Source of the DNA: Candidatus Thorarchaeota archaeon
GTDB taxonomy: Archaea > Asgardarchaeota > Thorarchaeia > Thorarchaeales > Thorarchaeaceae
NCBI GenBank assembly: GCA_004524435.1
Contig: SDNO01000003.1
Location: forward strand, 1-39,413
DNA: 39,413 nucleotides
Reading direction: 5' to 3'
Below the pieces are notes generated by a model. The model searched no databases, had not been told where the DNA came from, and saw only the letters and a program-made list of their open reading frames with translations. The position numbers and the translations under genes were made by a program. Shown here piece by piece: positions 8,124 through 36,593 of this stretch (the first letter of the stretch is position 1; every line of letters starts with the position of its first letter).

Positions 8124-8993
8124 TTATTTGTCGTTTTGTTTGTTTTCATCCAGAGGTTTGACAAGCAACCCCTCGTCCGTCACTTTGAGGACCACCCGTT
8201 TCTCAATGCCTGCAAGTTTCTTGACCTCTTCGGGGACAACGAGTCTTCCCTTGGCATCGACTTCAGTGATATCACCATAGAGTGTATGTTTCTGTCCCTC
8301 GATCAGACCATCGCGGATATGCAGAACTCTATCAGCATACTTCGCTACACGTGGATTGTGTGTGACATTGACAACGGTTGTTTGAAGATCAGTGTTTGCC
8401 GTCCTGACGTAGTCCATCACCCTTTCTGAAGTCTCAGTATCAAGCTCGCCGCAGATTTCATCACCCAGAATCACGTCAGGTTCATTTGCCAGTGCGACAC
8501 ATACTGCAACTCGCTGAATCTGTCCTCCAGATAGCTGACTCGGTCTATGATCTGCTCTCGCCTTCAGACCCATGGTATCTAGCAGCATCTTAGCTCTCTT
8601 GGACGCTGTGTCTTTCGACTTCCCTGCTATACGCATCGGGAGAAGAACATTCTCAAGGGCGGTCAGACCCTCCACCAGGTTTTCCGTTTGCCAGACGAAT
8701 CCAATCTTTCTCCTTCTGAACTCCACCGCCTGATCGTCCTTCAGCTGACTGATGTTTTGTCCATCGAAGACCACCAAGCCGCCCGTTGGCCTATCCAGCG
8801 TGCCAAGGATTTTCAGCAATGTTGATTTGCCGCTGCCTGATGCTCCCATGAGGCTGACAAACTCCCCCTCCTTCACCTCGAAATCTATTCCTCTGAGGGC
8901 GATCACTTCTTGTGGGCCTTGATTGTATATCTTAATGAGGTCACGGACCACAATCTTGTTTTCTTTTGTAATTCGATCTAGGTCTTCTCCCAT
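8124..8993 (-). CDS. ABC-transporter ATPase (LolD/MacB-like) fused to a C-terminal AbrB-type domain, cassette 2
   Basis: The 289-residue protein powers the FtsX-type permeases encoded just upstream. Residues 1-235 are a complete nucleotide-binding domain: Walker A GASGSGKST (about 50-58), Q-loop FVWQ, signature LSGGQIQRV, Walker B VILGDEI with catalytic Glu, and H-loop THN. Residues about 243-281 (EVDAKGRLVVPEEVKKLAG ... GLLVKPL) match the SpoVT/AbrB swapped-hairpin domain, which is normally found in DNA-binding regulators and MazE-type antitoxins. The ORF track starts at a GTG (9002), but GGAGTGAT sits at Shine-Dalgarno distance from ATG 8993. The paralogue at 14724 has the same GGAGTGAT-4 nt-ATG layout and an alignable N-terminus. 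The Walker B neighbourhood is DEICGELD rather than the usual DEPTGNLD. Fusion and ATPase calls are firm; DNA binding is inferred. Confidence 0.93.
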   Translation of the reverse strand: MGEDLDRITKENKIVVRDLIKIYNQGPQEVIALRGIDFEVKEGEFVSLMGASGSGKSTLLKILGTLDRPTGGLVVFDGQNISQLKDDQAVEFRRRKIGFVWQTENLVEGLTALENVLLPMRIAGKSKDTASKRAKMLLDTMGLKARADHRPSQLSGGQIQRVAVCVALANEPDVILGDEICGELDTETSERVMDYVRTANTDLQTTVVNVTHNPRVAKYADRVLHIRDGLIEGQKHTLYGDITEVDAKGRLVVPEEVKKLAGIEKRVVLKVTDEGLLVKPLDENKQNDK

Positions 8994-8998
8994 GGGTA

Positions 8999-11806
8999 TC
9001 ACTCCGTTGTTCTGAGTTCTTCTGCGAGGTTACGATTCAGTATTCTATTCGAGATGAAGTATGTGGAACCTAGGGCAAATGCTAGGCTCAGAGCCAGCAG
9101 CAGAGCTGTTACAGTTGGGGGTACTAGAAACCGGACTGTAAGGCGTGACCACTCAACAAGCAATCCAGAACCTGCGTATACAAGTGGCATGTTCATCACT
9201 GTTAGTGTTAGGAAACTTGCGAGTACGAGCCCCAGAGCCGCGCCGATAAGTGTGCTGAACGCACTATCAAGTAGAAGAGATGTACTAAGAGAATGTCTCT
9301 GTGTACCCATGGCTCTCAGGATTGCGAGCTGCTTCCTGAGTTTCCGGCCACGAATCATCGTCAGGAGGACCATCCCTGCCGTCAGATATCCGAGTGAGAA
9401 TATCAGATTGAGTGCATAAACTCCGTAGATTGACCCACTTGTCGCAGACCGGAATAGGGCATCATACTCCTGTGAGGGGACATCATAGGAGAGAGTTTCA
9501 TTCGAGCACGCTTCTCGGATGCTCTGCACGACGGCCTCAGGATTGCTTCCTTCTTTCACACTAACATAGACTTCAGTGATTCGCGACGTATTCAGCGTTT
9601 GATAGACGTATTCTATGTTCATGATGATGAAGTCAGTCGCATCTGCAACGCCTGGAAGATACGTCTTGCTCTCAGTAGTTTCGTCATCTGATAGAAGCCC
9701 CACGATTGTGCAGTTATTCTCCAGCAGCGTTTCATTATGGAGAAAGCTGACTGAGATTTCGTCTGTATACACGGGTTGACCACTGCCGGACTGGTCGGCG
9801 GTTTGAAACAATGGCTTGAAGGATGACAGGATGTTCGATGAATTGGAGAGAAGGCTCAGAGTTGCTTCTATGTCGCGTGTGTCAACAAAGTAAGGCAACC
9901 AGAATGCTGCTCCTGACCAACGCTCCGGCTGAACGGCATACACGGGGTATGTAGTGTTCACCTCGAGCAGTTCAGTTCCGGCCCGAGTCATATATCTCAG
10001 CCAGGCAACTGTCCTGAGCAGGCCTGCAGCGCGGTGAACCCCTTCTATGTCGGCGACTTCGTCAACAAAGGCACAACTTGCATACTCTGAGCCCGGTTCG
10101 ATGTGAATGACTATGTCTGCTCCTGCTTCGAATGTGTACAGGTCTCTGATGTGTTCTGCTCCAGTACTAGAGGCAATGGCCGAGAAGAATCCTGATGCAA
10201 AGACCAGTACGATGAACATCGTACCAAGAGCTTCACTGGTCCTGAACACACGTAGATTCCTGCTGAGGACTCTGGGGCCGATTGCCAGTTTCGTTTTTCC
10301 CACTCTCCCAAGGACCTTTCTGCGAAGAAATGGACCCAATCTCGAAAGAGCTTTTGCCGAGCCTATTATGAGCGCAGAGAAAAGCAGAATGAGAGTCATA
10401 GCGAACAGAACAGAACCTGAGCTGGAGATTCCTTGTTGTCCTAGTCTTCCAAGCATTGGAATCACCAGAATCGCCGATACTGCAGCAATAGAAATCTCCC
10501 ACACGGGACTCACCCTTTCACACCCTTGCCGAGTGGTCTGGCGGTCTATCTTCATTCTCGCCTCGCTGGGCAGCATGATTAGTGCTCTCAATGCAGATGG
10601 AAGACTGACTGCTACTCCAACGACGAAGGAAAATGAAAACACATAGAGAATCAACTCAGGATTCAAGGCCTGTTCAACTGCAATGGTTCGAGACAGATCA
10701 AACTGGAGCGGACCAGAAGTGGTTCCCGATAATACCGCAGCCAAGATTCCAGTGCCCACAGCCCCGAAACTGCCCAAGATGCCCGTCACAAGAGCGCTGC
10801 CCATCACCCAGACGAATGCCTGTCTTCCCTTCGCACCCCTTGTCACTATGTTTCCAATCTCTCTCCGTCTTTCATCGGCGAGAATCTCAGAGTTGTAGTT
10901 CACCAGCATGATGCCCATAATCACACTTGGGACCGAAAAGGCCAGAGCAACGAGTGTCATGGTCGAGGACCATGAGCCGTAGCCATACACGGATTCGAGC
11001 AAGTCAAAACGTTCAACGAGGGCATAGGGTAAGGCCGCCTGCTCTATCCTTTTCTTCACGGTCTTCAGTCCGGGCACGATGGAGGCTGGGTCAGACTGAT
11101 GAAGCAGATTCCGGTCCAGCTGCAGCCAGAAGACATGTCGGATTCCATTGAGGCCTCCTAGCTCCAGACTTCCATACTGATACTCAAGCGACTGACGTGA
11201 CGTCAATATCTGCAAGCTGCTGAATTTCTGACTTGCAGCCATTTCTGTACTCGGAGCTATGGAAAAAGTTCCAATGACTGTGAGATTGCCGTAGTGGAAT
11301 ACAGGCTTGAACTCGGAATCGTATACAACCAAAGGAATCTTCCATGTTTCCCCAAAGGCAAGTCCTTCTTCTATGAAGAGCTGTTCCTCAACATAACATT
11401 CCCCGTTTCGGAGAATTGTGTCATCACTCAATGAGAAGGATGCACCAAAGGATTGGAAGAAGGTGTTGTTGACGCCTAGTATCGTTCGTCTTGAGGCTCC
11501 TGGTAAGTCTCTGGGTTTGGAGTAACCTTGAGCTACAGACAACATTTCTAGATTCGAAACGTCCTGTTGTTCAATGATGTCGTGAAATAGAATGGGAAGG
11601 GTGGTTGAATTCTGGGCGTAGAAACTATTCGTAACTGAAACTTCTAGATCAACCTCTACCTCTGATGTCATCTCGGAGAGCACGTTGCGACTGGAGGCGT
11701 CCAGATAGAGCAGCGCTCCGCCGAGCACACCTGATGCGATCGAAAAGACCACCACTGTCACGAGGACTTGGGGAGCTTTTGATGTGAGTCGCGACTTCAG
11801 GAACAT
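8999..11806 (-). CDS. FtsX/MacB-type ABC permease B, cassette 2
   Basis: This 935-residue permease belongs to the type VII (MacB/LolCE/BceB-like) superfamily, which works by moving substrates or signals on the outer face rather than through a channel. I count ten membrane segments. One lies near residues 11-35, followed by an extracytoplasmic domain of about 240 residues. Six more are in the middle, then a second external domain, and three at the end. This amounts to two FtsX modules. The cytosolic motif before the final helices (RKLRKQLAILRAMGT) is the FtsX-family coupling region. Its ATG directly abuts the TAG of the preceding permease (TAGATG) with GGGAGGGGG upstream, and it overlaps the ATPase start region, so the three genes are translationally coupled. 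It is a paralogue of the 15605-18424 protein (both begin MFL-SRL-S-APQVL). The substrate is unknown. Confidence 0.9.
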   Translation of the reverse strand: MFLKSRLTSKAPQVLVTVVVFSIASGVLGGALLYLDASSRNVLSEMTSEVEVDLEVSVTNSFYAQNSTTLPILFHDIIEQQDVSNLEMLSVAQGYSKPRDLPGASRRTILGVNNTFFQSFGASFSLSDDTILRNGECYVEEQLFIEEGLAFGETWKIPLVVYDSEFKPVFHYGNLTVIGTFSIAPSTEMAASQKFSSLQILTSRQSLEYQYGSLELGGLNGIRHVFWLQLDRNLLHQSDPASIVPGLKTVKKRIEQAALPYALVERFDLLESVYGYGSWSSTMTLVALAFSVPSVIMGIMLVNYNSEILADERRREIGNIVTRGAKGRQAFVWVMGSALVTGILGSFGAVGTGILAAVLSGTTSGPLQFDLSRTIAVEQALNPELILYVFSFSFVVGVAVSLPSALRALIMLPSEARMKIDRQTTRQGCERVSPVWEISIAAVSAILVIPMLGRLGQQGISSSGSVLFAMTLILLFSALIIGSAKALSRLGPFLRRKVLGRVGKTKLAIGPRVLSRNLRVFRTSEALGTMFIVLVFASGFFSAIASSTGAEHIRDLYTFEAGADIVIHIEPGSEYASCAFVDEVADIEGVHRAAGLLRTVAWLRYMTRAGTELLEVNTTYPVYAVQPERWSGAAFWLPYFVDTRDIEATLSLLSNSSNILSSFKPLFQTADQSGSGQPVYTDEISVSFLHNETLLENNCTIVGLLSDDETTESKTYLPGVADATDFIIMNIEYVYQTLNTSRITEVYVSVKEGSNPEAVVQSIREACSNETLSYDVPSQEYDALFRSATSGSIYGVYALNLIFSLGYLTAGMVLLTMIRGRKLRKQLAILRAMGTQRHSLSTSLLLDSAFSTLIGAALGLVLASFLTLTVMNMPLVYAGSGLLVEWSRLTVRFLVPPTVTALLLALSLAFALGSTYFISNRILNRNLAEELRTTE

Positions 11807-14560
11807 CTAGACCCCCTCCCTCTCCAATGAGTGTGCCCAGCTGGCGTCAAGAGCTTGGTTGAGTTCGATATTCGCCCCTACCAATGTCACAATCACGTTG
11901 ACAAGGAATACAGTGGTAATGAACAGCGCAAGAATGATTCCCATAAGCGCAATCGGGATAGAGATCTGTATTGGAACCGGGTACTTGTACCATGAGCCGG
12001 AGTGGGTGTCTGCAAAGAGTAGTAGTTCGTTAGATATCATTAGGGGGGAAAACATCATGACCATGAGTAGGCTGAAGAATGTGAGCGCTACGGTTTCAGA
12101 TACTTGTGTCTTTGTGACATCTCCCCTTGTACTCCCCATGGCCTCAAGAATTGCCATCTCTCTTCTTGCTTTCTGGAGACTCTCCATGGAATACAATAGG
12201 AAGACTGCAATGCTTGCCAATAGACCAACCATCACTGTTACCGTGTCAACTCTCCTCTGGACAAGGTACTGTGGGCTTTGCGTAAGGATAGTGGTCTCGA
12301 TATGAGCTGAAGACCATTTTCCCTCGTCAATCACTTGTGAGGCCCCGTGAGCTATGAGGTCGTATGCAAGTTGAGCGCCCGCCTCTGATTCATCCACCCG
12401 GGCGAAGATTATTGGATCAAGTGTCTCAGCCTTCTGTATTATCTCAGACGCACTACCAATATTGATGAAGACCTTCTGTTGACCTACCACATATGAGTAA
12501 CCGAGACCCGTATAGACCAGCTTCCCATCCTTTGATACGAGCCTATCAGGAAGATAGTCTACAACTGCCACAATGACAAACTCGAAGACCTCAATCTCGT
12601 TGCCGGATTTGAGAAAGGCCCGAAGAAGATCATCCTCTCCAATCTCCATATCACTGGCGATATCTTCCGTCACTATTGCCCCAAGAGGGTTACTTGCGAG
12701 CTCATTCAATGCGATACGAAGGTCTGATTCCTCCAAGTGAATTCCATGTTCGTCATAGGCAACATAAGAGAGTTGTTCCGGATTGACTGCCACAAAGTCT
12801 GCAGTATTACCCCCCTCTGTACTTAGGTCAAGCCGAGTAGCTGCTGCAAAAGTTGCGTTGGTGCAGTAGGGATGAGATGTGACATTGGAGAGGAAAGGCT
12901 GCCAAGAGTCCGGAGAGCTTGAATCCAGGTGAAACGAAACATCACCACCAATGGCGAATCTAGTGTTGACAGTCGCCGTGTAGGGAAGTGTCGTGCTTAC
13001 GAGTGCAGAATTCCACGATGAGCTCAATGCCAAAACAAGCACCATGGCCGCTGGGACTGCAGAGGCTGATTCTTTCACCATCCTCCTTATTCCCACACTC
13101 GCGGATACTCTGCCCATCAACGGGCTGAACATCTTTGCCAACCATGGGGATCCTTTTCTAACGATTCCTATGGAAAGATTGGCAAGCCCGATGAATATGA
13201 CGAGAGGAAGGGACTCGAGGATGAGAGACACCACGAAATCATCTCCAGAAGCGAAACCTCCCAAGTGTAGACTACTGAAAACCAAGAGCCCAATGACAAT
13301 CAAGACAAGGTCCCACCGAAGAATGCCCGTGATCCGTGAGTACTTGCCTAACTGTGCACCCTGAGGTTCTGTGTCCACACGAGTACGGTAGTGAGAGAGG
13401 TAAGCCGCAGCCGTTATCATGGGCAAACCAGTTCCAATGACAATGCCGAAGATTAGGCAATCAAGAGTCACCAGAACCCTTGAGTTCAGGAGCAGTGAAA
13501 AATCGAAAGTGAGAAATCCAGTAGAACTAGTAGCCATCCAACCGAGTAGTGTTCCTAACAGGAATCCTATTCCTGCCGCTGCCAAAGAAAGGGCGAGGAG
13601 TTCGAAGTTGAGGATCCTGTTCAAGTAGGACTGAGGCACTCCACGAGCATGGAGCCTGTTGATCTCTTTCTTCCTCTCAGTCACATGTTTCCGTACCACT
13701 AATAGAGAGGTAACCACTGCCAGCACCAATGAACTCCCGGCACGATATACATTGACCAGGCGCAATTCCTGCAGATATGTTTGGTACTCATTGATACCTT
13801 CCTTCAGCATGCCAATGACAGTGATGAGAGACCAGTCTCTCGTAACACCGTAGTCCTCATCCAGACTCCTAATTGACTCCTCGACTTGAGTGAGGACCGA
13901 GAGGCTCGTACGAGGGTTGAAAGGCGTCACGACATTCTCTGGCACCGATACGTAGACATACCCAGTTTTTGCAAACGTGATTAACTGTTCCAGGACTATG
14001 GCCTTTGCCAATGAATACTGGTTGGGGTTGTGGTTATCCACCGCTCCCAGCTCGAAAATGCCAACCAGAGTGAGTTGATAATCTGTTCTAGGTAGCATGA
14101 CTGTCATATTGACGTCGAATCCAAGTGTGCTCTTCAGGGCTGAAGCGACGCTCTGCTCTAGCGCAATCTCAGATCTGTTTGCTGGCATCCTCCCCTCTAT
14201 TATCCTGAATACAGTGGGATAGTTCTCGATGAAGAGATCGTCTATGTAGGCTGTTGTCGTTTCAACTTCCCATAATAGGGACTTATAGAGGGTTGTCAGT
14301 CTGGCTCGAACAGTAGCCACTGATCCTGCCTTTGCCACGCCTTCCATCTCACGAATCTCATCGAGCTTATGCTGGAGATACTCGGCCTGAGCAGTCATCG
14401 ATGCAGGCCCGACGTCAGTGTGCTCATCCCACTCGCTGAGTGACTCAGTATCAAGATAGACCATCAAGCCAACGATACTTGCAGAACATAGCATGAAGCA
14501 GAACACAGTCACTATTTGGCTGCGGGACTTCTGTAGTATCTTGAGACTCAATGGGACCAT
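11807..14560 (-). CDS. FtsX/MacB-type ABC permease A, cassette 2
   Basis: The 917-residue protein is a second, distinct FtsX-type permease that presumably pairs with permease B to make a heterodimer. A membrane segment sits at about 15-35 and a large external domain follows. A middle block contains several helices, including the coupling segment RKEINRLHARGVP. A second external domain precedes the last three helices, which come after the coupling segment RREMAILEAMGSTRGDV. Its closest relative in the window is the 18424-21213 protein (shared SMHKWDE/SLSEWDE-type N-terminal external motif). The ATG at 14560 has a good Shine-Dalgarno (CGGAGGAAT) 7-8 bases upstream. It is the first gene after a 163-base gap that holds a TATA-like element and a palindrome, so this cassette may also have its own promoter. 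Confidence 0.9.
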   Translation of the reverse strand: MVPLSLKILQKSRSQIVTVFCFMLCSASIVGLMVYLDTESLSEWDEHTDVGPASMTAQAEYLQHKLDEIREMEGVAKAGSVATVRARLTTLYKSLLWEVETTTAYIDDLFIENYPTVFRIIEGRMPANRSEIALEQSVASALKSTLGFDVNMTVMLPRTDYQLTLVGIFELGAVDNHNPNQYSLAKAIVLEQLITFAKTGYVYVSVPENVVTPFNPRTSLSVLTQVEESIRSLDEDYGVTRDWSLITVIGMLKEGINEYQTYLQELRLVNVYRAGSSLVLAVVTSLLVVRKHVTERKKEINRLHARGVPQSYLNRILNFELLALSLAAAGIGFLLGTLLGWMATSSTGFLTFDFSLLLNSRVLVTLDCLIFGIVIGTGLPMITAAAYLSHYRTRVDTEPQGAQLGKYSRITGILRWDLVLIVIGLLVFSSLHLGGFASGDDFVVSLILESLPLVIFIGLANLSIGIVRKGSPWLAKMFSPLMGRVSASVGIRRMVKESASAVPAAMVLVLALSSSWNSALVSTTLPYTATVNTRFAIGGDVSFHLDSSSPDSWQPFLSNVTSHPYCTNATFAAATRLDLSTEGGNTADFVAVNPEQLSYVAYDEHGIHLEESDLRIALNELASNPLGAIVTEDIASDMEIGEDDLLRAFLKSGNEIEVFEFVIVAVVDYLPDRLVSKDGKLVYTGLGYSYVVGQQKVFINIGSASEIIQKAETLDPIIFARVDESEAGAQLAYDLIAHGASQVIDEGKWSSAHIETTILTQSPQYLVQRRVDTVTVMVGLLASIAVFLLYSMESLQKARREMAILEAMGSTRGDVTKTQVSETVALTFFSLLMVMMFSPLMISNELLLFADTHSGSWYKYPVPIQISIPIALMGIILALFITTVFLVNVIVTLVGANIELNQALDASWAHSLEREGV

Positions 14561-14648
14561 TGCGGATTCCTCCGGTGCTCAGGTATCAGCTGGCTTCTCG
14601 AAACACACCGTATCCATTCTCCACGATTCTTGCCCAGTGCTGTATTCA

Positions 14649-14680
14649 GAAACCGGTTTCGTTGATACTGCCTAATAAGC
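14649..14680 (-). promoter_or_regulatory. internal promoter with a perfect 12-bp palindrome (candidate operator)
   Basis: In the gap between the two ABC cassettes the minus strand reads GCTTATTAGG at 14680-14671, a TATA-like element. About 26 bases downstream, at the predicted transcription start, lies the perfect palindrome GAAACCGGTTTC (14649-14660). A symmetric site at a start point is what a dimeric repressor would bind. Who binds it is unknown; the AbrB-type domains encoded on either side are candidates. Confidence 0.4.
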
Positions 14681-14723
14681 AGACTCCTTGAAGCAGCAGG
14701 CGGTTTGCTCCTGCGCTCTCAGC

Positions 14724-15599
14724 CTATGATTGCTCGTCTTCTTCGAGATGCGTTTCAAGTGGCCGCATGAGGAGCCCTCTGTCTGTGATCTCGAGGACCA
14801 CTCTCTTTCCGATGTTGGCCAGTTTCCTGACTGATTCTGGAATCACGACTCTGCCCTTTGCATCGACCTCTGTCATCTCTCCGTAGATGGTGTGTTTCTG
14901 TCCCTCGATTAGGCCGTCTCTGATGCGGAGCACTCTATCTGCTGTGGCCGCAACCCGGTCATTATGTGTTACATTGACAACCGTCGTGCCGAACTGCTCA
15001 TTAATCATGCGAACGGATTTCATGACCATGTCAGTTGTTTCCGTGTCTAATTCTCCGGTTATCTCGTCGGCCAAAAGAAGCTCTGGTTGGTTAGCCAGTG
15101 CCACACAGATTGCCACCCGCTGGTTCTCGCCGCCTGAAAGCTGATTCGGTTTGTGCTCCATCCTCTTGGAGAGGCCCATCGTCGTGAGAAGCATCTCAGC
15201 ACGTTCTTGGGATTTGTCTTTGGGAGCTCCTGCTAGATTCATCGGCAGCATGACATTCTTCAGAGCGGTGAGGCCTGGTACCAGATTGCCACTCTGCCAA
15301 ACGAAACCGACCTTCCTGCGTCGATACATCATTGCCCTATAGTCATCAAGTAGAGTCACGCTATGCCCATCAAAAAGGACGCTTCCAGCAGTGGGTTTGT
15401 CTAAGGCGCCTAGCAGTTTGAGGAGAGTTGACTTTCCACTTCCTGACGGACCTACAATGGTTATGAATTCGCCCTCCGAGACTTCGAAGTCAATGCCTCG
15501 TAGAGCAATCACTTCTTTCCTTCCCCTCTTGTAGACCTTCATCAGGTCTCTGACCACGACTTTGTATTTTTCCGCAATCTCTTCTATGTTCTCAGTCAT
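14724..15599 (-). CDS. ABC-transporter ATPase (LolD/MacB-like) fused to a C-terminal AbrB-type domain, cassette 1
   Basis: The 291-residue protein is the paralogue of the 8124 ATPase. The ATPase domain has Walker A GPSGSGKST (about 50-58), Q-loop FVWQSGN, signature LSGGENQRV, Walker B LLLADEI with catalytic Glu, D-loop GELD and H-loop THN. Residues about 243-281 (EVDAKGRVVIPESVRKLAN ... GLLMRPL) form the SpoVT/AbrB-type domain, joined through the linker EGQKHTIYGEM, which is nearly identical in the paralogue. The C-terminus is acidic. The ORF track begins 53 codons early inside the upstream permease; ATG 15599 is correct because GGAGTGAT stands 4 bases before it and the paralogue aligns from there. 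It follows permease B after a 5-base gap. Whether the domain binds DNA or only regulates the ATPase dimer, as the extra domain of MalK does, cannot be told from sequence. Confidence 0.93.
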   Translation of the reverse strand: MTENIEEIAEKYKVVVRDLMKVYKRGRKEVIALRGIDFEVSEGEFITIVGPSGSGKSTLLKLLGALDKPTAGSVLFDGHSVTLLDDYRAMMYRRRKVGFVWQSGNLVPGLTALKNVMLPMNLAGAPKDKSQERAEMLLTTMGLSKRMEHKPNQLSGGENQRVAICVALANQPELLLADEITGELDTETTDMVMKSVRMINEQFGTTVVNVTHNDRVAATADRVLRIRDGLIEGQKHTIYGEMTEVDAKGRVVIPESVRKLANIGKRVVLEITDRGLLMRPLETHLEEDEQS

Positions 15600-15604
15600 C
15601 AGAA

Positions 15605-18424
15605 TCACTCCGCGTATTGAATTTCCTCCGCAATGTTGGCCTGAAGGCATCTCCATGTCACAGTCAGAACCGCAAAGAGTGAAAAGACAAAGGCTGTGCC
15701 TATGATGCCAGCAAGGATTCCGGTGGGTATCGAAGGCACCACCGGAAGCCGAGTCCACAGACTCGTTGTGCTGCTTCCTATGAAGACTAAGGGAATCTGA
15801 CTGACGAGGCTGGCCAAGAAGATGCCGAAAAGGCTCCCAATGACGCTGGCAATACAGATGCCCGCAAGCATGTCAATTCCCACAACAAGCATAATCGAAC
15901 TTGTATCACTACCAAGGGCCCGCATAATTGAGAACTCTCGCCGCAGTTTTCGCACCCGGATTACTGAGACCACTGCCATCCCAGCCGTCAGGTAGACAAG
16001 TGCGAACACAACGTTCAAGGTATAGACTCCGAATACTGACTGGCCAGCTTTCGCATCTAGAGTCTGATCCCGTTGTTCGTGCGCACTATCGATACCCACC
16101 ACGTTGTTCGGTGCGGCCTCATGGATATCTTGGATTATGCGAGTGTAGTTCGCCCCGTCCTCGATTCTCACGAAATACCGGCTGACACTATCTGTGTCTA
16201 GAGCCATCTGGACATAGTTGAGGTTCACGAGAACAAAACTGGGAAGGTTCGAGTATCCTGGCAGATATCTCACTCCACCGCCCTCCATAGAAGACAGCGT
16301 ATCAACTATATTGCAATCGAGATAGAACTTCTCGTTGGGGTCCCTTGCTATCTCTAGCCTGTATGTGTCGCCATAGACTGGGACCCGGTTCGGATACTGA
16401 CCTGCATAGTGGGAGAAGGGTTTGAAGGAGCTCAACACGTTGGAGTTCGCCAGCTGCATTGCCTGGAGCCCCATCTGGGGCGTATTCTCATAGGCGAAAT
16501 ACGGGAGCCAGAATCCCGTTTCCTCATAGAGCTCTGGTTGTACCCCAATGACATTGATCTCCCTTCGGACCTGTGAAACAGCTCCCATGGTATCCTGTGT
16601 TGTGTACATGACAACACCGCTTGCCTCAAGCACAGCACAGGCAGATGTCACTCCTTCAATGGCGGACAGATTGTCCACAAAAGCACGTGTCATGTTATCG
16701 AAGGCTGGATTCAGTTCAACGCTGATGTCTGCCCCAGTCTCAAACAAGAAGAGATGCTCCATGTGGGCATAGCCCGTCGATGCAGAGACAGATGAGAATA
16801 CGCCAGCAGTGAATACGAGGGCGATGAACATGGTCCCGATGATCTCACTCTTCTTGAAGACATTCGTGGCCCGTGAGAGTACTCTCGAGGCCGCTGCCAA
16901 TCTGGGTCGTTTTATCCGATCCAAGACTCGGGACTTGAACCAAGGTCCAATTCGAGCAGCCCCACGTGTGAACGTGAACAGGGCGATGGCAAGTAATGGT
17001 ACTACTAGCAGCATCATGGATGCGATGGCGACGAGGCTGAATCCGTATCCAAGCATCATGAGCATCGGCCCCAGAAGGTACGCGGAGATAGCGAAGCCAA
17101 CGATATCGAAGAAGGGATTTCCAATAGTTTCTCGATCCAAGAGGTTCTCGCGTTGCACGATACTGTGAGCCTCTGTGGCGGTGATTGTGAGCGCTTTTGC
17201 TGCGGCAGGTATGGAAACTAGTAGCCCCATAACAAATGAGAATACGAAGACGAAGATGATAGACTGTGTAGTGAAGAAGAACGTAAACTCGCCGAGCTGC
17301 GTCAGATCGAAGTTCATGAATGTGCGTACTGTACTCGACATGACAGCCCCTGCAATCCCCGTCCCAATTGCACCGACACTTCCGACGATGGCCGTGAAGA
17401 GACCCGAACCCATGATCCAACTGAATGCCTGTCGTCCTGAAGCTCCCCGAGTCTTCAGTGTTCCAACATCCCTACGTTGTTCGTCTGCCAGTAGATTCGA
17501 ATTGTAGTACACGAGGAACATGCCCATGAATATTGTTGGAATGCAGAAGGCTACCCCTATGGCTCGAATGACAAAGACCCAGTTCACGTACTTGTTGACA
17601 GCGTCACGGAGCTCGTAGCCTCCGTATGGCACGACAGCATAGGGAAGAAGTCGTTGCTCAATGCGGCGGCGAATGTTCTCCAGTTCATCAATGGTTTCTG
17701 CAGGATCCGACGACAGGATAAGGCTGTGGTCGATTGCGGCCCAGACTGCATCCCTCACGGTGCTGTCCATGAAGACGGGCGCCATCCTGTTTCTTATTCC
17801 AACCTGAGTGGTCACCATCCTCAGCGATGTGAACTCCGGTTGCTGCCAGTAATAACTCCTCATGAACAGCTCTGAAGTGAAAGTACCGACGATGGTGAAG
17901 TTGACATTGTTCTCTATCCTGTTACCATGCTGATCCCACTGGACTGTGCGCGCCGTGTAGTTGTCCCCGATTGCCAGCCCGAAATCGTCCATTGTTTCCT
18001 TCTCAACCCAGCAACTGGTGTTATCGAATGGGGAGTTACCCTGGGTGTCCTCTAGTGCGTTTGGGAACGTTTCGAAGAATGAAGACTCAACGCCCAGGTA
18101 TGTGTTTTCATAGTACCTTGGGTCATCCTGATACCACTCAAAGGATTGAAGGTAAGCCACCGACTCTGTGTCCAGAATATGAGTCTGATTTGCTATTGTT
18201 GCAATGATGTCTTCGAGCGATGTCTCGTTCTGGAAGCCGAAGATTGGCTGGATTTCGACCTTCAAGTCGATGGAAACGTCTTCGGTGAAATCATCCAAGA
18301 CCTGTGGTCCGATAGTATCCATGTAGAGCAAGACGCCACCTAGCACACCAGAAGAGAGCGAGAATACAATCAGAGTTGCGAGTACCTGAGGTGCGCGTGA
18401 CATGAGTCTTGAGAAGAGAAACAC
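15605..18424 (-). CDS. FtsX/MacB-type ABC permease B, cassette 1
   Basis: The 939-residue permease has the same plan as the 8999-11806 protein. There is an N-terminal helix (about 11-35), an external domain, a central block of about six helices, a second external domain, and three C-terminal helices preceded by RKLRREFSIMRALGS. The central coupling segment is ADEQRRDVGTLKTRGASGRQAF, matched closely in its paralogue (ADERRREIGNIVTRGAKGRQAF). The start is GTG at 18424, overlapping the TAG of permease A by one base (TAGTG), with GGGAGG upstream. It is part of the translationally coupled ABC operon, and probably forms a heterodimer with permease A1 and uses the AbrB-fused ATPase encoded next. The substrate is unknown. 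Confidence 0.9.
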   Translation of the reverse strand: MFLFSRLMSRAPQVLATLIVFSLSSGVLGGVLLYMDTIGPQVLDDFTEDVSIDLKVEIQPIFGFQNETSLEDIIATIANQTHILDTESVAYLQSFEWYQDDPRYYENTYLGVESSFFETFPNALEDTQGNSPFDNTSCWVEKETMDDFGLAIGDNYTARTVQWDQHGNRIENNVNFTIVGTFTSELFMRSYYWQQPEFTSLRMVTTQVGIRNRMAPVFMDSTVRDAVWAAIDHSLILSSDPAETIDELENIRRRIEQRLLPYAVVPYGGYELRDAVNKYVNWVFVIRAIGVAFCIPTIFMGMFLVYYNSNLLADEQRRDVGTLKTRGASGRQAFSWIMGSGLFTAIVGSVGAIGTGIAGAVMSSTVRTFMNFDLTQLGEFTFFFTTQSIIFVFVFSFVMGLLVSIPAAAKALTITATEAHSIVQRENLLDRETIGNPFFDIVGFAISAYLLGPMLMMLGYGFSLVAIASMMLLVVPLLAIALFTFTRGAARIGPWFKSRVLDRIKRPRLAAASRVLSRATNVFKKSEIIGTMFIALVFTAGVFSSVSASTGYAHMEHLFLFETGADISVELNPAFDNMTRAFVDNLSAIEGVTSACAVLEASGVVMYTTQDTMGAVSQVRREINVIGVQPELYEETGFWLPYFAYENTPQMGLQAMQLANSNVLSSFKPFSHYAGQYPNRVPVYGDTYRLEIARDPNEKFYLDCNIVDTLSSMEGGGVRYLPGYSNLPSFVLVNLNYVQMALDTDSVSRYFVRIEDGANYTRIIQDIHEAAPNNVVGIDSAHEQRDQTLDAKAGQSVFGVYTLNVVFALVYLTAGMAVVSVIRVRKLRREFSIMRALGSDTSSIMLVVGIDMLAGICIASVIGSLFGIFLASLVSQIPLVFIGSSTTSLWTRLPVVPSIPTGILAGIIGTAFVFSLFAVLTVTWRCLQANIAEEIQYAE

Positions 18425-21213
18425 TAGCCATCGCCTCCCATGGGTCCGCCTTCAGACCAAGATGCGTTCAGAGACTGTGAAAGCTGGATTCTTGTTGCAA
18501 GGCTCGATACGGCCACAACAAACAATGTGACTGACACCAGGAAGAAACCTAAGACAAGGGATAGGGTTCCATAAGGAACAGAGAAGAAGAATCGGATTGG
18601 ATAGATGATATAGCTCGTCTGCTGGGATAGGCCGGTCGTGACAATGAGTAGTGGTGCAAATACGAGGAGCAGCATGATGCTCGAAAGTGTGAGTACCAGG
18701 AGCTCCGTCGCTTGCGTCTTCACTATGAGCCTCTTCCCTGCTCCCATCGCTCTCATCAGGGCGATCTCTCTTCGTCGTGAGTTCAGTCCCTCCGCTGCAT
18801 AGACGGATATGGCCCCAAAGATGACCAAGGTAGTGGCTATTGTCAACATTGTGTCCACTGCTCGATCCATCGTATAGTCTGTAGTGCCGATATACGAGCG
18901 AACTTCAGAGTCAACGTCAGCGTAGTCATTGTTGGCAGAGTCATCCCCATCGGTAGATTGGTATCCTGCTGCCTCTAGTATGTCGAGAGCAACTTCGGTG
19001 GTATTACTGGAATCTGCAACACGCATCGCGTACATGTTTCGCGACTCCGTGGTGAAGTTCACGAATTGTGATAGGTATCCTCTGTTGACCCACACAGTCC
19101 GCAGTCCAAATCCCGCACCGTAGTAGCCCCATATGTTCCCAGAAGTATCAGACAGAAGCGCGTTGGTGAGAGCCTCGTAGATTCCAATGATTGTGAAGGT
19201 GAACACCGAAACGTTCCCTCCTTCGGTTCCATATGACCGCAACGAATCGCCCACGGACAGCTCGTATTCTTCGGCTATATCTTGGGAGATTATGGCACCC
19301 ATTGGACTGGTTTCGAGCTCCATTAGCATGCTGCTAAGGGGCGACTCATTGAGGGGCTGGCCTGTGTAGTCGTATCCAACGGCCAGATAGTCCGATGGAT
19401 CCATTGCCACCAAGTCTGCGGCGTCGTAGTATCCGGTAGAGAGCATCCTCTCAGTGATTGACAGCTCTGCTCCAGCGACATAGGCCTCATGAAGCGTGCA
19501 GTTCTGCACGAACTCGGTAGCGTTTGCATCGGCGAAGCTATTCAAGGCATCGAGGTCGAAACGGATGTCTCCTCCGAATGTGAATCTGGCCTGATTCATC
19601 TTTGTTAGAGGGAGTGAATCCCCGATAACCGCGCTGCTCCAGGCAAGGCTGATAGTGAGCACTAGCACCATGGCGACAGGCCCTGCAGAGGACGCAGCCC
19701 TTCCTATTCGTCTGATTCCGACTGACGACGGAATAGAACCAAAGATGCCCTCCATCCTATTCGAGATACGATTTGCCCCGGCTCTGAGGGCCTTGATGAA
19801 TAGACTTGCCATCCCCAGAAAAAGCGCAAAGGGTGCAAGACTTAGTATCATGTTAGAGAAGAATCTCAACAATGGGTTGAGCTGCAGAGCAGTCCCCGTA
19901 GCCAACATGGCTATCAACGCAATGCCTGTCAGAGAGACCAGGAGCACATCCCACTTCACAAATCCCAGGAGGCGTGTGAGTTTGGCGAGTTTACCCGTGC
20001 TCTCCTCTGCCGTCTGTCTAATCCTGTATACGTAGTCATAGGCGAGGATTGCCCCGAAGGGGACGAGAATCCCCGCTACGGCTGATAGAGCCAGTGATTC
20101 GATGCTAATCAGGAACGGCTCATTGACGAAAAGCTCCCATCGGAAGACGAAATAGTCACTCGACATCACTCCCACTCTGCTGAGCAGGGCTCCGAGGCCG
20201 AGGCCGACTATCGTGGAGAGAGCAGCTAGTATCATGATTTCTTTGTACACCATGTTTCGAACCTTGTTCTCATCAGCACCTCTGGAGATGAGAATGTTCG
20301 ATTCGTATCTCCTCTCATTCATGTTGTGACGCACGGCGAGGAAGAGTGTCAAGACTACGAGGAGAATGGGGCCACCAGCTCGAAATAGCTGAGCAACACG
20401 CTTCCCCTGTTGCCAGGATGCATAATTCGTGATTCCTGAGCGGAGCCCGTCGTTTACCCAATATCTACTACCAGTATCCCGGTCTGGATCATACGTGGGA
20501 TCTAGTTCTCTTATTGACTCCTCGATCTGCAGGAGGTAGTCAAGACTGCCCTGAACATTGAAAGCTGATACTCTTGACCTGTCAACGTCAATCCAAAGGT
20601 ATGAATCATCGGTTCGTGGATCTAACATTGATCCCGTGACCATTGCGATCTGCCATCCGTAGTGGAAAGAACCAGAGTTTCCACTGAACTCCCAGAGCCC
20701 AACCACGGTCATGACGTAGGAACCACCTATCCCTGGCTCTCCTCGTGTGTAGTTCACTAGGTCACCAATGTCTATATCGGTTTCTTGGGCAATTTCGGCA
20801 CTGAGGGCTATCTCATCGGTGGCTGAGGGAAAGGCTCCTTTGTTGAGGACGAAAACATTGCCAAAGTGTGTCATCAGTGTTTGATCGTACCTGAAGACAC
20901 TAGCTGACCAAGTTATGGGTTGGCCCCCTGTTCCGATAGCTGTCACGCTTCCTTCTGCCGCTGCAAAGATTGCGATGTCTGTGACTCCGTCAATCTCTGC
21001 AACACCATCTGCGATGTGTTCGACGCCCGCGCCTCCTATCTCCATGGCGACAGGGCCAATCTCCACAAGCTCGTCCCACTTATGCATGGAATACGAATCA
21101 ACGTAGACCGTTATCGCTGCAGCAAGGGACGAGGAGAGCATGAGGCAGATCAGTGTGACGGCCTTTCTGCGGGACCCTCCGAATGTTTCGTATCCTACCT
21201 GCAGGGCAGTCAC
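18424..21213 (-). CDS. FtsX/MacB-type ABC permease A, cassette 1
   Basis: The 929-residue permease has an N-terminal helix at about 15-37, external domains of a few hundred residues after the first and after the seventh helix, and the FtsX coupling segments RRYESNILISRGADENKV and RREIALMRAMGAGKRL. It is paralogous to the 11807-14560 protein. The start is GTG 21213; its Shine-Dalgarno (TAGGAGGAT) contains the stop codon of the preceding classical ATPase gene, so translation of the two is tightly linked. External domains of this size in FtsX-type permeases are used for substrate or partner binding (as in MacB, LolCE and BceB). I cannot assign export of a specific lipid, peptide or protein. Confidence 0.9.
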   Translation of the reverse strand: MTALQVGYETFGGSRRKAVTLICLMLSSSLAAAITVYVDSYSMHKWDELVEIGPVAMEIGGAGVEHIADGVAEIDGVTDIAIFAAAEGSVTAIGTGGQPITWSASVFRYDQTLMTHFGNVFVLNKGAFPSATDEIALSAEIAQETDIDIGDLVNYTRGEPGIGGSYVMTVVGLWEFSGNSGSFHYGWQIAMVTGSMLDPRTDDSYLWIDVDRSRVSAFNVQGSLDYLLQIEESIRELDPTYDPDRDTGSRYWVNDGLRSGITNYASWQQGKRVAQLFRAGGPILLVVLTLFLAVRHNMNERRYESNILISRGADENKVRNMVYKEIMILAALSTIVGLGLGALLSRVGVMSSDYFVFRWELFVNEPFLISIESLALSAVAGILVPFGAILAYDYVYRIRQTAEESTGKLAKLTRLLGFVKWDVLLVSLTGIALIAMLATGTALQLNPLLRFFSNMILSLAPFALFLGMASLFIKALRAGANRISNRMEGIFGSIPSSVGIRRIGRAASSAGPVAMVLVLTISLAWSSAVIGDSLPLTKMNQARFTFGGDIRFDLDALNSFADANATEFVQNCTLHEAYVAGAELSITERMLSTGYYDAADLVAMDPSDYLAVGYDYTGQPLNESPLSSMLMELETSPMGAIISQDIAEEYELSVGDSLRSYGTEGGNVSVFTFTIIGIYEALTNALLSDTSGNIWGYYGAGFGLRTVWVNRGYLSQFVNFTTESRNMYAMRVADSSNTTEVALDILEAAGYQSTDGDDSANNDYADVDSEVRSYIGTTDYTMDRAVDTMLTIATTLVIFGAISVYAAEGLNSRRREIALMRAMGAGKRLIVKTQATELLVLTLSSIMLLLVFAPLLIVTTGLSQQTSYIIYPIRFFFSVPYGTLSLVLGFFLVSVTLFVVAVSSLATRIQLSQSLNASWSEGGPMGGDG

Positions 21214-21225
21214 GTCTATATCCTC

Positions 21226-21957
21226 CTACGATACATTCACGATTGTTCCGTCTCTCATGGTGTAGAGCTTCTCCATCTGTTGACCCACCTCTGGGTCATG
21301 CGTCACCACGATGAGTGTCCCACCCTCTGTGTGAGTGAGTTCCCTCAGTACCTGCATGATCTCCTCACCCGTCCTTGTGTCCAGGTCTCCTGTAGGTTCG
21401 TCCGCAAGCACAATTACCGAGCTGGCTTGACCTTTTGGCTTGGCCAAGGCTCGAGCAATTGCAACCCGCTGTTGTTCTCCTCCGGATAACTCGTCTGGTC
21501 TGTGTTCTGCTCTCTCTGTTAGACCCACCAGCTCGAGGAGATGATCAACTCGCTCTTTCCGCGCATTCTCCTCAATACCACCGATGAGTAGCGGCAACTC
21601 GACATTCTCATAGGCGGAGAGAACCGGTAGCAGGTTGAAGAACTGGAAGACGAATGAGATCTTATCTCTCCGAACGGCAGTGAGATCCTTCTCGTCCATC
21701 TTTGTGATGTCCATTCCGTCAATCCTGACTGAACCGGAGGTTGGTCTGTCTAGGGCTCCTATGAGATTAAGAAGCGTGGTCTTGCCGCTTCCCGAAGGCC
21801 CCATGATGGCAATTGCTTCTCCCTCCGTTACGTCCAGGGAAACGCCTCGTAGGGCTTCAACACTCACTTCCCCAACTCTGTAGATCCTAGAAACGTTGTC
21901 AACTGAGATGAGATAGTCGTCGTTCAGCACGTCCCACTCCAAGATTCTTGCTAACAT
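21226..21957 (-). CDS. classical LolD/MacB-type ABC ATPase, head gene of the operon
   Basis: The 243-residue ATPase is a textbook member. Walker A is GPSGSGKTT (about 52-60), the Q-loop is FVFQFFNLLP, the signature is LSGGEQQRV, Walker B/D-loop is VLADEPTGDLD, and the H-loop is VVTHDPEV. It ends right after the nucleotide-binding domain (TMRDGTIVNVS) and lacks the AbrB-type extension of the two cassette ATPases. Its residues around Walker B are the canonical DEPTG, unlike theirs. It is the promoter-proximal gene of the minus-strand operon and overlaps the Shine-Dalgarno of permease A1. It may form a mixed ATPase dimer with an AbrB-fused partner, or serve permease A while the fused ATPase serves permease B. 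That division is speculative. Confidence 0.95.
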   Translation of the reverse strand: MLARILEWDVLNDDYLISVDNVSRIYRVGEVSVEALRGVSLDVTEGEAIAIMGPSGSGKTTLLNLIGALDRPTSGSVRIDGMDITKMDEKDLTAVRRDKISFVFQFFNLLPVLSAYENVELPLLIGGIEENARKERVDHLLELVGLTERAEHRPDELSGGEQQRVAIARALAKPKGQASSVIVLADEPTGDLDTRTGEEIMQVLRELTHTEGGTLIVVTHDPEVGQQMEKLYTMRDGTIVNVS

Positions 21958-21967
21958 TATGGAATCA

Positions 21968-21983
21968 GCTAATAAGATAAGCG
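21968..21983 (-). promoter_or_regulatory. TATA-like box of the ABC operon
   Basis: On the minus strand GCTTATCTTATTAGC ends about 11 bases before the ATG at 21957, with its centre some 20 bases upstream. This implies a leaderless or almost leaderless mRNA. The GCTTAT-TTAG core resembles the TATA-like GCTTATTAGG before the second cassette. Confidence 0.35.
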
Positions 21984-22092
21984 CTTTCCCTCAAGCAACG
22001 CTGCTATTGGTTCATGGTTTCTGAAGACGAAGCTTTATCTAAGCGAACCGCTGTCACCTGTATAACCACAAAGAGAGAGTTGGTGGGTAGTT

Positions 22093-23164: not shown

Positions 23165-24478
23165 TCACGTGTTCGAAATCTGGTCATCGTACAAGTCTGC
23201 AGCAGTCTGGAATACATCTTCGACTCCCTCGTTTGTTAGACACGAGGTCTCTACAAACGCTACGGGATGGAAGCTTCCTTCACTTCCTAGGTTTTCCGCA
23301 ATCTTCTCAGCCGCTTTGAAACCTTCCTCGTAGGTCACCGGTGGTTCATCCCACTCTTCCTCCCCTTCCGTTCTCTCGTCTACCTTGTTTCCAACTAGGA
23401 CAATCGGAGGCATATCCTCAGAGGTCATGGCGACTTCGCGAATCCAGAAGTCGATGCTCTCGAAGCTCCACCTGTCGGAGGCAGAGTAGACAATCAAGAG
23501 GACATCAGGGCTAGCGTAGAATGTTCTGCGATCTATTCTTGACTCGACAGCATAGTCAAAGCACCAGACTTGGATTTCCACCCGGTGATTGGTCGTGTCA
23601 AAGACCCGCTCGTAGATGTATCCTGATACTTCGTTGGTTTCCTCATCGATGCAGAGAGGACAGAGATTGGCCTTCGTCATAAGAGTCCTCTTGCCCACAG
23701 ATTTCTCGCCTAGAATCAGAACCTTTGCCTTCACTAAGGGCTTGATCGCGTGTTTTGAGCGCTTAGAGATTGGTTTTTCTTTGTCCTCCAAATCCTGTTC
23801 TTCTTCAGCTCTAGCAGGTGCTTGCTCCAACACATCCGGAGCGATAGGTTCCGAGGCTCTGCTCTTGGATGCGGCCTTTACCTCCATTTCCCCGGATAAA
23901 TCTATCTTGATTCTGGACTTACTCTCTTGCTTCTGGCTGCCCGTCGGCGCCATAAACGTGTCACTCATATGTTCCACCGCTGAGAGTGCTTCTGTTATGC
24001 CTTCATATCCATTCTGCCAGTTTGTGACTTCAGGCTCCGTTTCCGGAGTGGCCACAAATCTGGCTGTTGCCTCTTCTTTCAACTCGGGTTCGGCGTCCCT
24101 TAGAGCTTTTTCGGCGGTCTTTTTTTCTTGAACTGGGGGAGAGGTGTGCATTGTTTCGGACTCCTCTATGGCCTCTACTTCGGGGATCGGCTCGGGTTCA
24201 TCTTCAACCATTATTGATTTGGCCACGGGGACACCGATTGTATCCAGTGTGTCTCGGAGAATTCGGTTCGCAATGAGTTTGCCGTTGGAACGAAGATAGA
24301 GATTGAGGTCCTCGACTATCTCATCAAATGATCTATTCTTGATCTTTATTTTCTTCTTGATGATCCCTCTGTCTCGGACCTCAACGTAGGTTGGTAGAAG
24401 TGTGACCGAGACTGTTGTTCCGGGGACTATCAAGTGCCAGTTGCTCCAGAGCTGGGTTCTATCATGAACCTTCATCAT
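23165..24478 (-). CDS. Ras-like small GTPase domain with long N-terminal extension
   Basis: The 437-residue protein ends in a Ras-superfamily G domain (about 250-437): G1 GEKSVGKRT (257-265), G4 GNKVD (364-367) and G5 ETSC (410-413). The G3 position reads WCFDYAVES, where Ras has DTAGQE, so the conserved Gly is a Val; GTP hydrolysis or switching may be altered. Residues 1-90 form a compact beta-rich unit of unknown type (HLIVPGTTVSVTLLPTYVEV). A ~150-residue acidic, probably disordered linker follows (EDEPEPIPEVEAIEESE). Extra Ras-like GTPases are a known hallmark of Asgard archaea, and this protein is one reason I place the window there. The ORF track starts 78 codons early; the ATG pair at 24478/24475 fits the promoter spacing and keeps the divergent gene's promoter free. 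Confidence 0.85.
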   Translation of the reverse strand: MMKVHDRTQLWSNWHLIVPGTTVSVTLLPTYVEVRDRGIIKKKIKIKNRSFDEIVEDLNLYLRSNGKLIANRILRDTLDTIGVPVAKSIMVEDEPEPIPEVEAIEESETMHTSPPVQEKKTAEKALRDAEPELKEEATARFVATPETEPEVTNWQNGYEGITEALSAVEHMSDTFMAPTGSQKQESKSRIKIDLSGEMEVKAASKSRASEPIAPDVLEQAPARAEEEQDLEDKEKPISKRSKHAIKPLVKAKVLILGEKSVGKRTLMTKANLCPLCIDEETNEVSGYIYERVFDTTNHRVEIQVWCFDYAVESRIDRRTFYASPDVLLIVYSASDRWSFESIDFWIREVAMTSEDMPPIVLVGNKVDERTEGEEEWDEPPVTYEEGFKAAEKIAENLGSEGSFHPVAFVETSCLTNEGVEDVFQTAADLYDDQISNT

Positions 24479-24595
24479 GGAAGTCTTAACTGTTTCGTAG
24501 ATAGTTGTCCTCTGAAGTGGCAATCTCTCTCCCAAAGGCTCCGGATAGAAAGAAATATGTCTGATATTATCTGTCGTTTGTTCTGGGAAAAGACC
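24479..24595. promoter_or_regulatory. divergent promoter region between the GTPase and phosphoribosyltransferase genes
   Basis: On the + strand GATATTATC is centred about 28 bases before ATG 24596, fitting a leaderless APRT-like transcript. On the minus strand AACTATCTA is centred roughly 24-26 bases before ATG 24478. Both spacings support the trimmed starts chosen for these two genes over the longer, mutually overlapping ORF-track versions. Confidence 0.45.
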
Positions 24596-25165
24596 ATGAC
24601 AGAAGAAGATACGAATTTCCGCGACTATGTTGACGTTATTATCGACTGGCCCGAACCAGGAAAGGCTGTTTGTGACATCAGTCGACTGCTTGAGCATCCA
24701 ACAATCTTCCATGAAGCTGTCGTGGCTCTGGCTAGGCCACTTGTCGAACTGCAGCCAAATAAGGTTCTAGGCATAGAACAGCGAGGTTTGGCACTTGGAA
24801 GCGCCATTGCGTACTACTTGGGATGCGGAATTGTGCCCGCTCGTTCGATTGCGTATGTGCCAGACGACTACAAGCGACCAGTTGAATTCCTGCCTTCAAG
24901 CATGTTCGCAGATCGAAGGCTTGCTCTCGTATCGGAGTCCATCGATGAGGGTGACAGAGTAGCAATCGTTGATGACTGGCTTGTCCAAGGCACCACTGTA
25001 CTTGCGGTGAAGCGACTGCTTGAAGAAAAGCTGGGTGCAACAGTGGTAGGGATATCGTGTGTGATCAACAACTTATCTGACACTCGTCTCAAACTTCTGG
25101 GACGTCCGGAAGTCTTTGAACTCATCAGGAATCTGAAGACAGATATTCTCACACCAGTTGACTGA
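24596..25165 (+). CDS. adenine-phosphoribosyltransferase-like protein
   Basis: Type I phosphoribosyltransferases join a purine base to PRPP in salvage. The 189-residue protein has the APRT order of elements: DIIDWPEPGKAVCDISRLLEHP at the N-terminus, KVLGIEQRGLALGSAIAYYLG, and the PRPP-loop region VAIVDDWLVQGTTVLAVKRLL (about 124-144). The usual loop is VDD-x-x-A-TGGT; here the stretch is VDDWLVQGTT, so the Thr and first Gly are changed. The two acidic residues that contact the ribose hydroxyls are kept. It may be an active APRT with a variant loop, a salvage enzyme for another base, or a non-catalytic regulator as some archaeal PRTase-fold proteins are. ATG 24596 is preferred over the ORF-track start at 24434, which would overlap the divergent GTPase gene. 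Confidence 0.8.
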   Translation: MTEEDTNFRDYVDVIIDWPEPGKAVCDISRLLEHPTIFHEAVVALARPLVELQPNKVLGIEQRGLALGSAIAYYLGCGIVPARSIAYVPDDYKRPVEFLPSSMFADRRLALVSESIDEGDRVAIVDDWLVQGTTVLAVKRLLEEKLGATVVGISCVINNLSDTRLKLLGRPEVFELIRNLKTDILTPVD

Positions 25166-35762: not shown

Positions 35763-36593
35763 CTATCGAGAATCTGGCTCAAGGAGGGGTTGATCTATTC
35801 GTAGGCCAGGCCTAGGAAGTGAACAAGCATATACCTTGTCAATGACAATAGCCGCAGTCTTCCTGTCGATTGGCTTGAACTCGCCCTTCACTTGGAATGC
35901 AGCAGGTTCTTGTGTCACCAGGGAAACTGCTACTCGCTGGCCATCTCTGAGGTCGATTCCCCGTTTCCTTTCCTCGCTCCTGTCTACTACAAGGAGATTT
36001 TCTGACGCAGGTAGCATTCCAAACGCAGGAAATGCTCTAGGAAATCCAGATGAGTCCACATATCCAAGAATCTTGACGGCTGCCATCATATTGAATCGGT
36101 CCAGCACGGCAGGTGGCATTCTGCCTTTGCCTGTTGCCCGGTCAGACACCTTCCTCTTCGAGAGCCTTGCTCTGAGGTAAGTCAGCAGAACAGACATTTT
36201 GGAGAGCCCTTGCTTTTCGCCGACCCAGATAGCCTCTGCTAGACCTGCTCCACGAACGTTTGTGTACTGGTTGTACCGAAACAGAGGAGTCATTGCCATG
36301 AACTCATAGACCTCATCTGCCACATGGTATGAATCGAACTTCGCTGTGATGTTCCAGTTGTCAAGATTCATCTTAAGGACCAAAAGTCCAATCTTGTCAT
36401 TCCCCTTCTCCAAGTTCTGCTTTGTCTTGTGACCCATGAAATCACCGTAGACGAGCTGGTTTCCCTGATAGACAGTCCACGTCATCACAAGAGCTGAATT
36501 CGGCTCGTCCTCCTCATTCTTTGTAATCATGAACTTAGGAGTTTCAAATATGCTCAATGTTTCTTTCAGCTCATTACTAAGTATCTCATCCAC
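35763..36593 (-). CDS. double split-barrel FMN-binding-like protein (PNPOx-like), third gene of the glycyl radical operon
   Basis: The 276-residue protein looks like two tandem pyridoxamine-5'-phosphate-oxidase-type split barrels. The first (about 5-105) has SIFETPKFMITKNEEDEPNSALV, GDFMGHKTKQNLEKGNDKIGLLV and WNITAKF, the usual 'KT..NL..n..v.l.v' pattern around the flavin phosphate. The second (about 155-265) has VKILGYVDSSGFPRAFP, LRDGQRVAVSLVTQEPAAFQVKGEF and VYACSLPRPGLRI. Such proteins bind FMN, F420 or heme, so the cofactor is open. The start is GTG 36593, overlapping the activase gene by 8 bases, with GGGAGGA about ten bases upstream. The position suggests an electron-transfer or product-reducing role linked to the glycyl radical enzyme. 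Confidence 0.8.
   Translation of the reverse strand: MDEILSNELKETLSIFETPKFMITKNEEDEPNSALVMTWTVYQGNQLVYGDFMGHKTKQNLEKGNDKIGLLVLKMNLDNWNITAKFDSYHVADEVYEFMAMTPLFRYNQYTNVRGAGLAEAIWVGEKQGLSKMSVLLTYLRARLSKRKVSDRATGKGRMPPAVLDRFNMMAAVKILGYVDSSGFPRAFPAFGMLPASENLLVVDRSEERKRGIDLRDGQRVAVSLVTQEPAAFQVKGEFKPIDRKTAAIVIDKVYACSLPRPGLRIDQPLLEPDSR

Follow-up and report, generated by a model that had tools for sequence, protein, structure and literature searches.

The window analysed here is a stretch of 39,413 nucleotides from a Candidatus Thorarchaeota archaeon. It carries two tandem transporter modules, both read on the minus strand. Module 1 runs in the order N1, A1, B1, N2-AbrB (21957 to 14724), and module 2 follows it as A2, B2, N3-AbrB (14560 to 8124). 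The open reading frame of the N2-AbrB gene is exactly 15599 to 14724. Region 21958-22092 lies upstream of the operon, and region 14561-14723 lies downstream of the N2-AbrB gene. The features are as follows.

21226 to 21957, minus strand: N1, a plain LolD/MacB-type ATPase without an AbrB domain, first gene of the operon
18424 to 21213, minus strand: permease A1, with two FtsX domains, ten predicted membrane segments and two large outer domains
15605 to 18424, minus strand: permease B1, with two FtsX domains and A1-like topology, directly upstream of the N2-AbrB gene
14724 to 15599, minus strand: N2-AbrB, an ABC ATPase of 291 amino acids with a C-terminal AbrB domain
14907 to 15566, minus strand: LolD/MacB-type ATPase domain of N2 (residues 12-231), assigned by profile, structure comparison and motifs
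14883 to 14906, minus strand: linker of N2, eight residues (EGQKHTIY)
14757 to 14882, minus strand: AbrB/MraZ-type domain of N2, 42 residues (240-281)
14727 to 14756, minus strand: acidic C-terminal tail of N2, ten residues, net charge -5
11807 to 14560, minus strand: permease A2 of module 2
8999 to 11806, minus strand: permease B2 of module 2, overlapping the second ATPase-AbrB gene
8124 to 9002, minus strand: N3, the second ATPase-AbrB protein, third gene of module 2, with its AbrB domain at 8151-8276

A preliminary description of this DNA left the minus strand of the N2-AbrB gene unstated and missed the second ATPase-AbrB protein (9002-8124). N3-AbrB is 63% identical to N2-AbrB, and its ATPase motifs (8124-9002) are off-consensus, reading GASGSGKS, LSGGQIQR and DEICGELD. 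In N1 (21226-21957), the first ATG is probably not the start. The frame contains a ribosome-binding-like site, GGAGTGG, and relatives agree better with a start at a GTG some 27 bases further in. Elsewhere in the window, a Ras-like GTPase with a long N-terminal extension (23165-24712) is a conserved operon neighbour across the family. A glycyl-radical-enzyme-like gene stands side by side with an activating-enzyme-like gene at 36586-39278. The genome also encodes two ESCRT-III-like (Snf7) proteins, which, taken with the Ras-like GTPase, point to an Asgard archaeon.

The N-terminal part of N2 displays the features of a complete ABC ATPase. In profile searches, ABC_tran matches residues 33-181 (4.9e-33). 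Among named families, LolD TIGR02211 comes closest (2.4e-67), with a score of 226.7 bits that lies below the curated equivalog cut-off of 307.75. The predicted N2 structure superimposes on the archaeal ATPase MJ0796 (1f3o) with a Z of 31.0 and an rmsd of 1.4 over 222 residues at 45% identity. Walker A, the Q-loop, the signature, the Walker B glutamate and the H-loop are all intact, and the catalytic motifs of N1 are complete as well. A degenerate, scaffold-only ATPase is rejected because the catalytic motifs of N2 are intact.

Every permease contains two FtsX domains. Their hydropathy is consistent with about ten membrane segments, with large outer domains after segments 1 and 7, and permeases A and B are predicted to have YbbP-like topology. 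An FtsX-type permease with large outer domains, as expected of a type VII system, is encoded in the same operon as N2. N2 is a type VII ABC ATPase that bears an AbrB/MraZ-superfamily domain.

The isolated N2 C-terminus matches MraZ PF02381 at 7.1e-6, and its 26.3 bits exceed the 23-bit cut-off. Its match to AbrB TIGR01439 (3.6e-6, 26.6 bits) is slightly below the cut-off of 28.3. For PF04014, the family with which the preliminary description had proposed to check the segment, a match is present at 1.7e-4, but its 21.9 bits stay below the cut-off of 24.7. The resemblance is not due to chance, since each of 20 homologous C-termini, searched individually, matches both PF02381 and TIGR01439. Profile matches of the N2 C-terminus are confined to AbrB/MraZ, and neither a MetN C2 nor a ModC domain appears among them. 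The initial reading of a complete LolD/MacB-type ATPase followed by an AbrB-type domain is thereby borne out.

Structure prediction points in the same direction. Models of both the full chain and the fragment give strand-strand-helix-strand-strand, the order expected for AbrB. These are single-chain predictions from a shallow alignment and of low to moderate confidence, with pLDDT of about 50-63 over the AbrB domain in the full-chain model and mostly 66-85 in the fragment model. In the PDB, the fragment finds AbrB, SpoVT and MazE as its three top fold matches, all of them weak (E 0.2-0.4), and a VIA-align search with the isolated domain returned one unrelated match (Z 2.1). From the profiles above, the C-terminal domain of N2 is identified as a member of the AbrB/MazE/MraZ superfamily. 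By analogy with that superfamily, it would form a swapped-hairpin dimer.

The fusion was sought across genomes of the phylum with a profile of the linker and AbrB region. It occurs in 38 of the 47 genomes of the family. The other 180 genomes of the phylum gave no fusion and one marginal match, an 88-residue frame too short for an ATPase. In the nine family genomes without the fusion, the orthologous ATPase was also not found at E 1e-70, a threshold to be read against scores of about 1e-104 or better for complete orthologues elsewhere in the family and 7e-95 for the window paralogue. No intact orthologous ATPase without an AbrB domain was seen in the family genomes. Chance, a frame error and a contig or assembly artefact are all rejected, with two copies in the window and agreement among 38 genomes.

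Gene order N1-A-B-N2 is retained in 18 of 20 relatives. The remaining two are cut short, and locus L045 ends within A. At the other (L037, 9326-10999), the intact ATPase-AbrB gene has only 254 residues of permease B in front of it, and N1 and A are missing beside it. One scan of genome contigs for relatives outside the phylum returned only two Bacteroidales LolD-like proteins, which lack an AbrB domain, and a scan of viral contigs returned no relatives; neither scan is proof of absence elsewhere. In the literature searched, which misses most subscription journals, no description of an ABC ATPase with an AbrB domain was found. A survey of Asgard transporters (PMC7997004) does not mention AbrB, MacB, FtsX or LolD.

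Pairwise comparison of 22 complete homologues gives mean identities of 0.77 (ATPase), 0.81 (linker), 0.80 (AbrB domain) and 0.26 (tail). By this measure, the AbrB domain matches the ATPase in its degree of conservation. The linker is near-invariant, commonly EGQ(K/R)HTLY, and its length is fixed in all homologues compared. The tail is always acidic in homologues, with a net charge of -2 to -8.

These features are compatible with a C-terminal regulatory module acting through dimerisation. We consider it about an even chance that N2 is one of the two ATPases of a type VII system and that its AbrB domain is such a module. Like other proteins of the AbrB fold, two AbrB copies would exchange hairpins to form a single small barrel. 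Given the short linker of fixed length, this pairing would tie two ATPase subunits together and limit their separation between ATP cycles. A ligand or partner on the barrel, or the pairing itself, could then set transporter activity. Precedent exists in MetN, whose C2 domains pair, bridge the ATPases and prop them open, and the C-terminal domains of ModC act similarly (PMC10710835). We infer the dimerisation, the effect on ATPase separation and the existence of a ligand or partner.

The geometry would depend on how N1 and N2 sit on the permeases, and the stoichiometries considered here are likewise inferred. If N2 forms a homodimer on permease B, pairing would occur within one transporter, as in MetN. 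This is feasible, since YbbP operates with its ATPase in two copies (PMC12646458). With an N1-N2 heterodimer, each transporter would carry one AbrB domain. A MetN-like arrangement within one transporter would be impossible, and the barrel would join two transporters.

A different role for the same dimer is protein docking. The AbrB dimer would here not hold the ATPases together but would serve, in the manner of MazE-MazF, as a fixed platform for a protein by which the transporter is recruited or inhibited. AbrB-family antitoxins are known to bind proteins, and surface charges are strongly conserved among the fused domains. Moreover, two proteins of the same genome carry an AbrB domain fused to PhoU, an ABC-linked regulator. 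The conserved shared neighbours, however, include no obvious partner gene, and we regard docking as rather unlikely.

DNA binding, for which the AbrB fold is best known, underlies a further alternative and was the role favoured in the preliminary description. The AbrB domain would bind the operon control region or chromosomal DNA in general. The transporter would in this way control transcription or be tethered to the chromosome, with ATP-driven closure as a possible gate. In Bacillus subtilis AbrB, the DNA face has been assigned to R8, R15, R23 and R24 (PMC4022651). In the archaeal protein Sso7c4, R11, R22 and a basic tail contact DNA, and R22 is equivalent to AbrB R23 (PMC5222340). The fused domains keep the equivalents of AbrB R15, R23 and R24, the last being represented by Lys in two homologues and by Ser in a third. 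Other contact positions are lost in all homologues compared. The AbrB R8 equivalent is Thr or Ser, the K9 equivalent is Glu, the Sso7c4 R11 position is Ala in an ungapped alignment, and the helix begins with Glu or Asp in place of the archaeal lysine. By contrast, stand-alone AbrB domains of the same Asgard phylum mostly have K or R at the K9 position and mostly K at the helix start, a rough control of 14 pattern-picked sequences, one or two of them doubtful. The tail differs in the same sense, being acidic in the fused domains and basic in Sso7c4.

The control region was compared across 18 operons, and no shared operator-like sequence was found upstream of N1. The best upstream 8-mers occur in six of the 18 sequences, against three to five in shuffles. 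As operators, they are rejected, being largely ribosome-binding site or the end of a neighbouring gene. Upstream of N1 at five loci (L042, L044, L052, L036 and L050), a GTACAATTCTTnGTAC-like imperfect repeat is present, partial in some. In these few related species, it is closely followed by a TATA-like box; the window lacks it.

With several contact positions replaced, an acidic tail and no shared operator, DNA binding by the fused AbrB domain appears less likely. The original proposal of a transporter-regulator keeps three arginines of the DNA face on its side, but the acidic or neutral residues at the other positions, the tail and the lack of a conserved operator speak against it, and we consider it unlikely. 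Its more specific form is quite unlikely. Here, the ATP cycle would gate the pairing of AbrB domains on ATPase subunits, and this pairing would make or break a DNA-binding unit and turn the transporter into a DNA-binding or chromosome-tethering regulator. The option that the same description gave second, a regulatory dimerisation domain resembling the C-terminal domain of MalK, becomes the more likely reading, given the replaced contact residues and the acidic tail. A purely structural part, stabilising the assembly of the ATPase or of two transporters with no regulatory role, is very doubtful: the short, fixed linker and uniform conservation would suit it, but the related type VII systems LolD, MacB, YbbA and FtsE assemble without an AbrB domain, and the partner ATPase N1 lacks it. 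The AbrB domain on N2 most likely regulates the ATPase rather than binds DNA, and filing N2-AbrB as an AbrB transcription factor is unwarranted on present evidence.

A C-terminal regulatory module of this kind would add a new fold to the few regulatory domains known on ABC ATPases. It would do so in type VII, a transporter class whose well-studied ATPases carry no regulatory domain. The reach of this finding is limited, as the fusion is so far confined to one archaeal family. Within that family, an AbrB domain is strongly constrained in a setting other than its usual one of DNA binding.

With LolD, MacB, YbbA and MJ0796, N2 shares a complete ATPase fold, all catalytic motifs and FtsX-type permeases; the well-known members stop after the ATPase domain, whereas N2 continues into AbrB. 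YbbAP and BceAB have a ten-segment permease with duplicated FtsX units, as here, and YbbP has two outer domains like the present permeases. Those systems consist of one ATPase and one permease gene, whereas this operon has two of each. With AbrB, SpoVT, MraZ, MazE and Sso7c4, the N2 domain shares its profile, the motif D-x-K-G-R-x-V-I-P-x-x-x-R-x-L-A and the order of strands and helix. It differs from them in its attachment to the C-terminal end of an ATPase, in several altered DNA-contact positions and in its acidic tail.

The archaeal AbrB-PhoU proteins, two of which occur in the same genome, also place an AbrB-type domain on an ABC-linked protein. In those, the domain is N-terminal and attached to PhoU, whereas in N2 it is C-terminal and attached to the ATPase. 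AbrB-PhoU-like proteins are encoded at L001 691-1665 and L002 1444-2487, and one adjoins a gene for a PstS-like phosphate-binding protein. MetN (of MetNI) and ModC resemble N2 in having an extra domain directly C-terminal to the ATPase that is expected to dimerise. They differ in the fold of that domain, in being importers rather than FtsX-type systems and in having a known ligand. N2-AbrB does not belong to the MetN or ModC families, but by analogy it may work like them.
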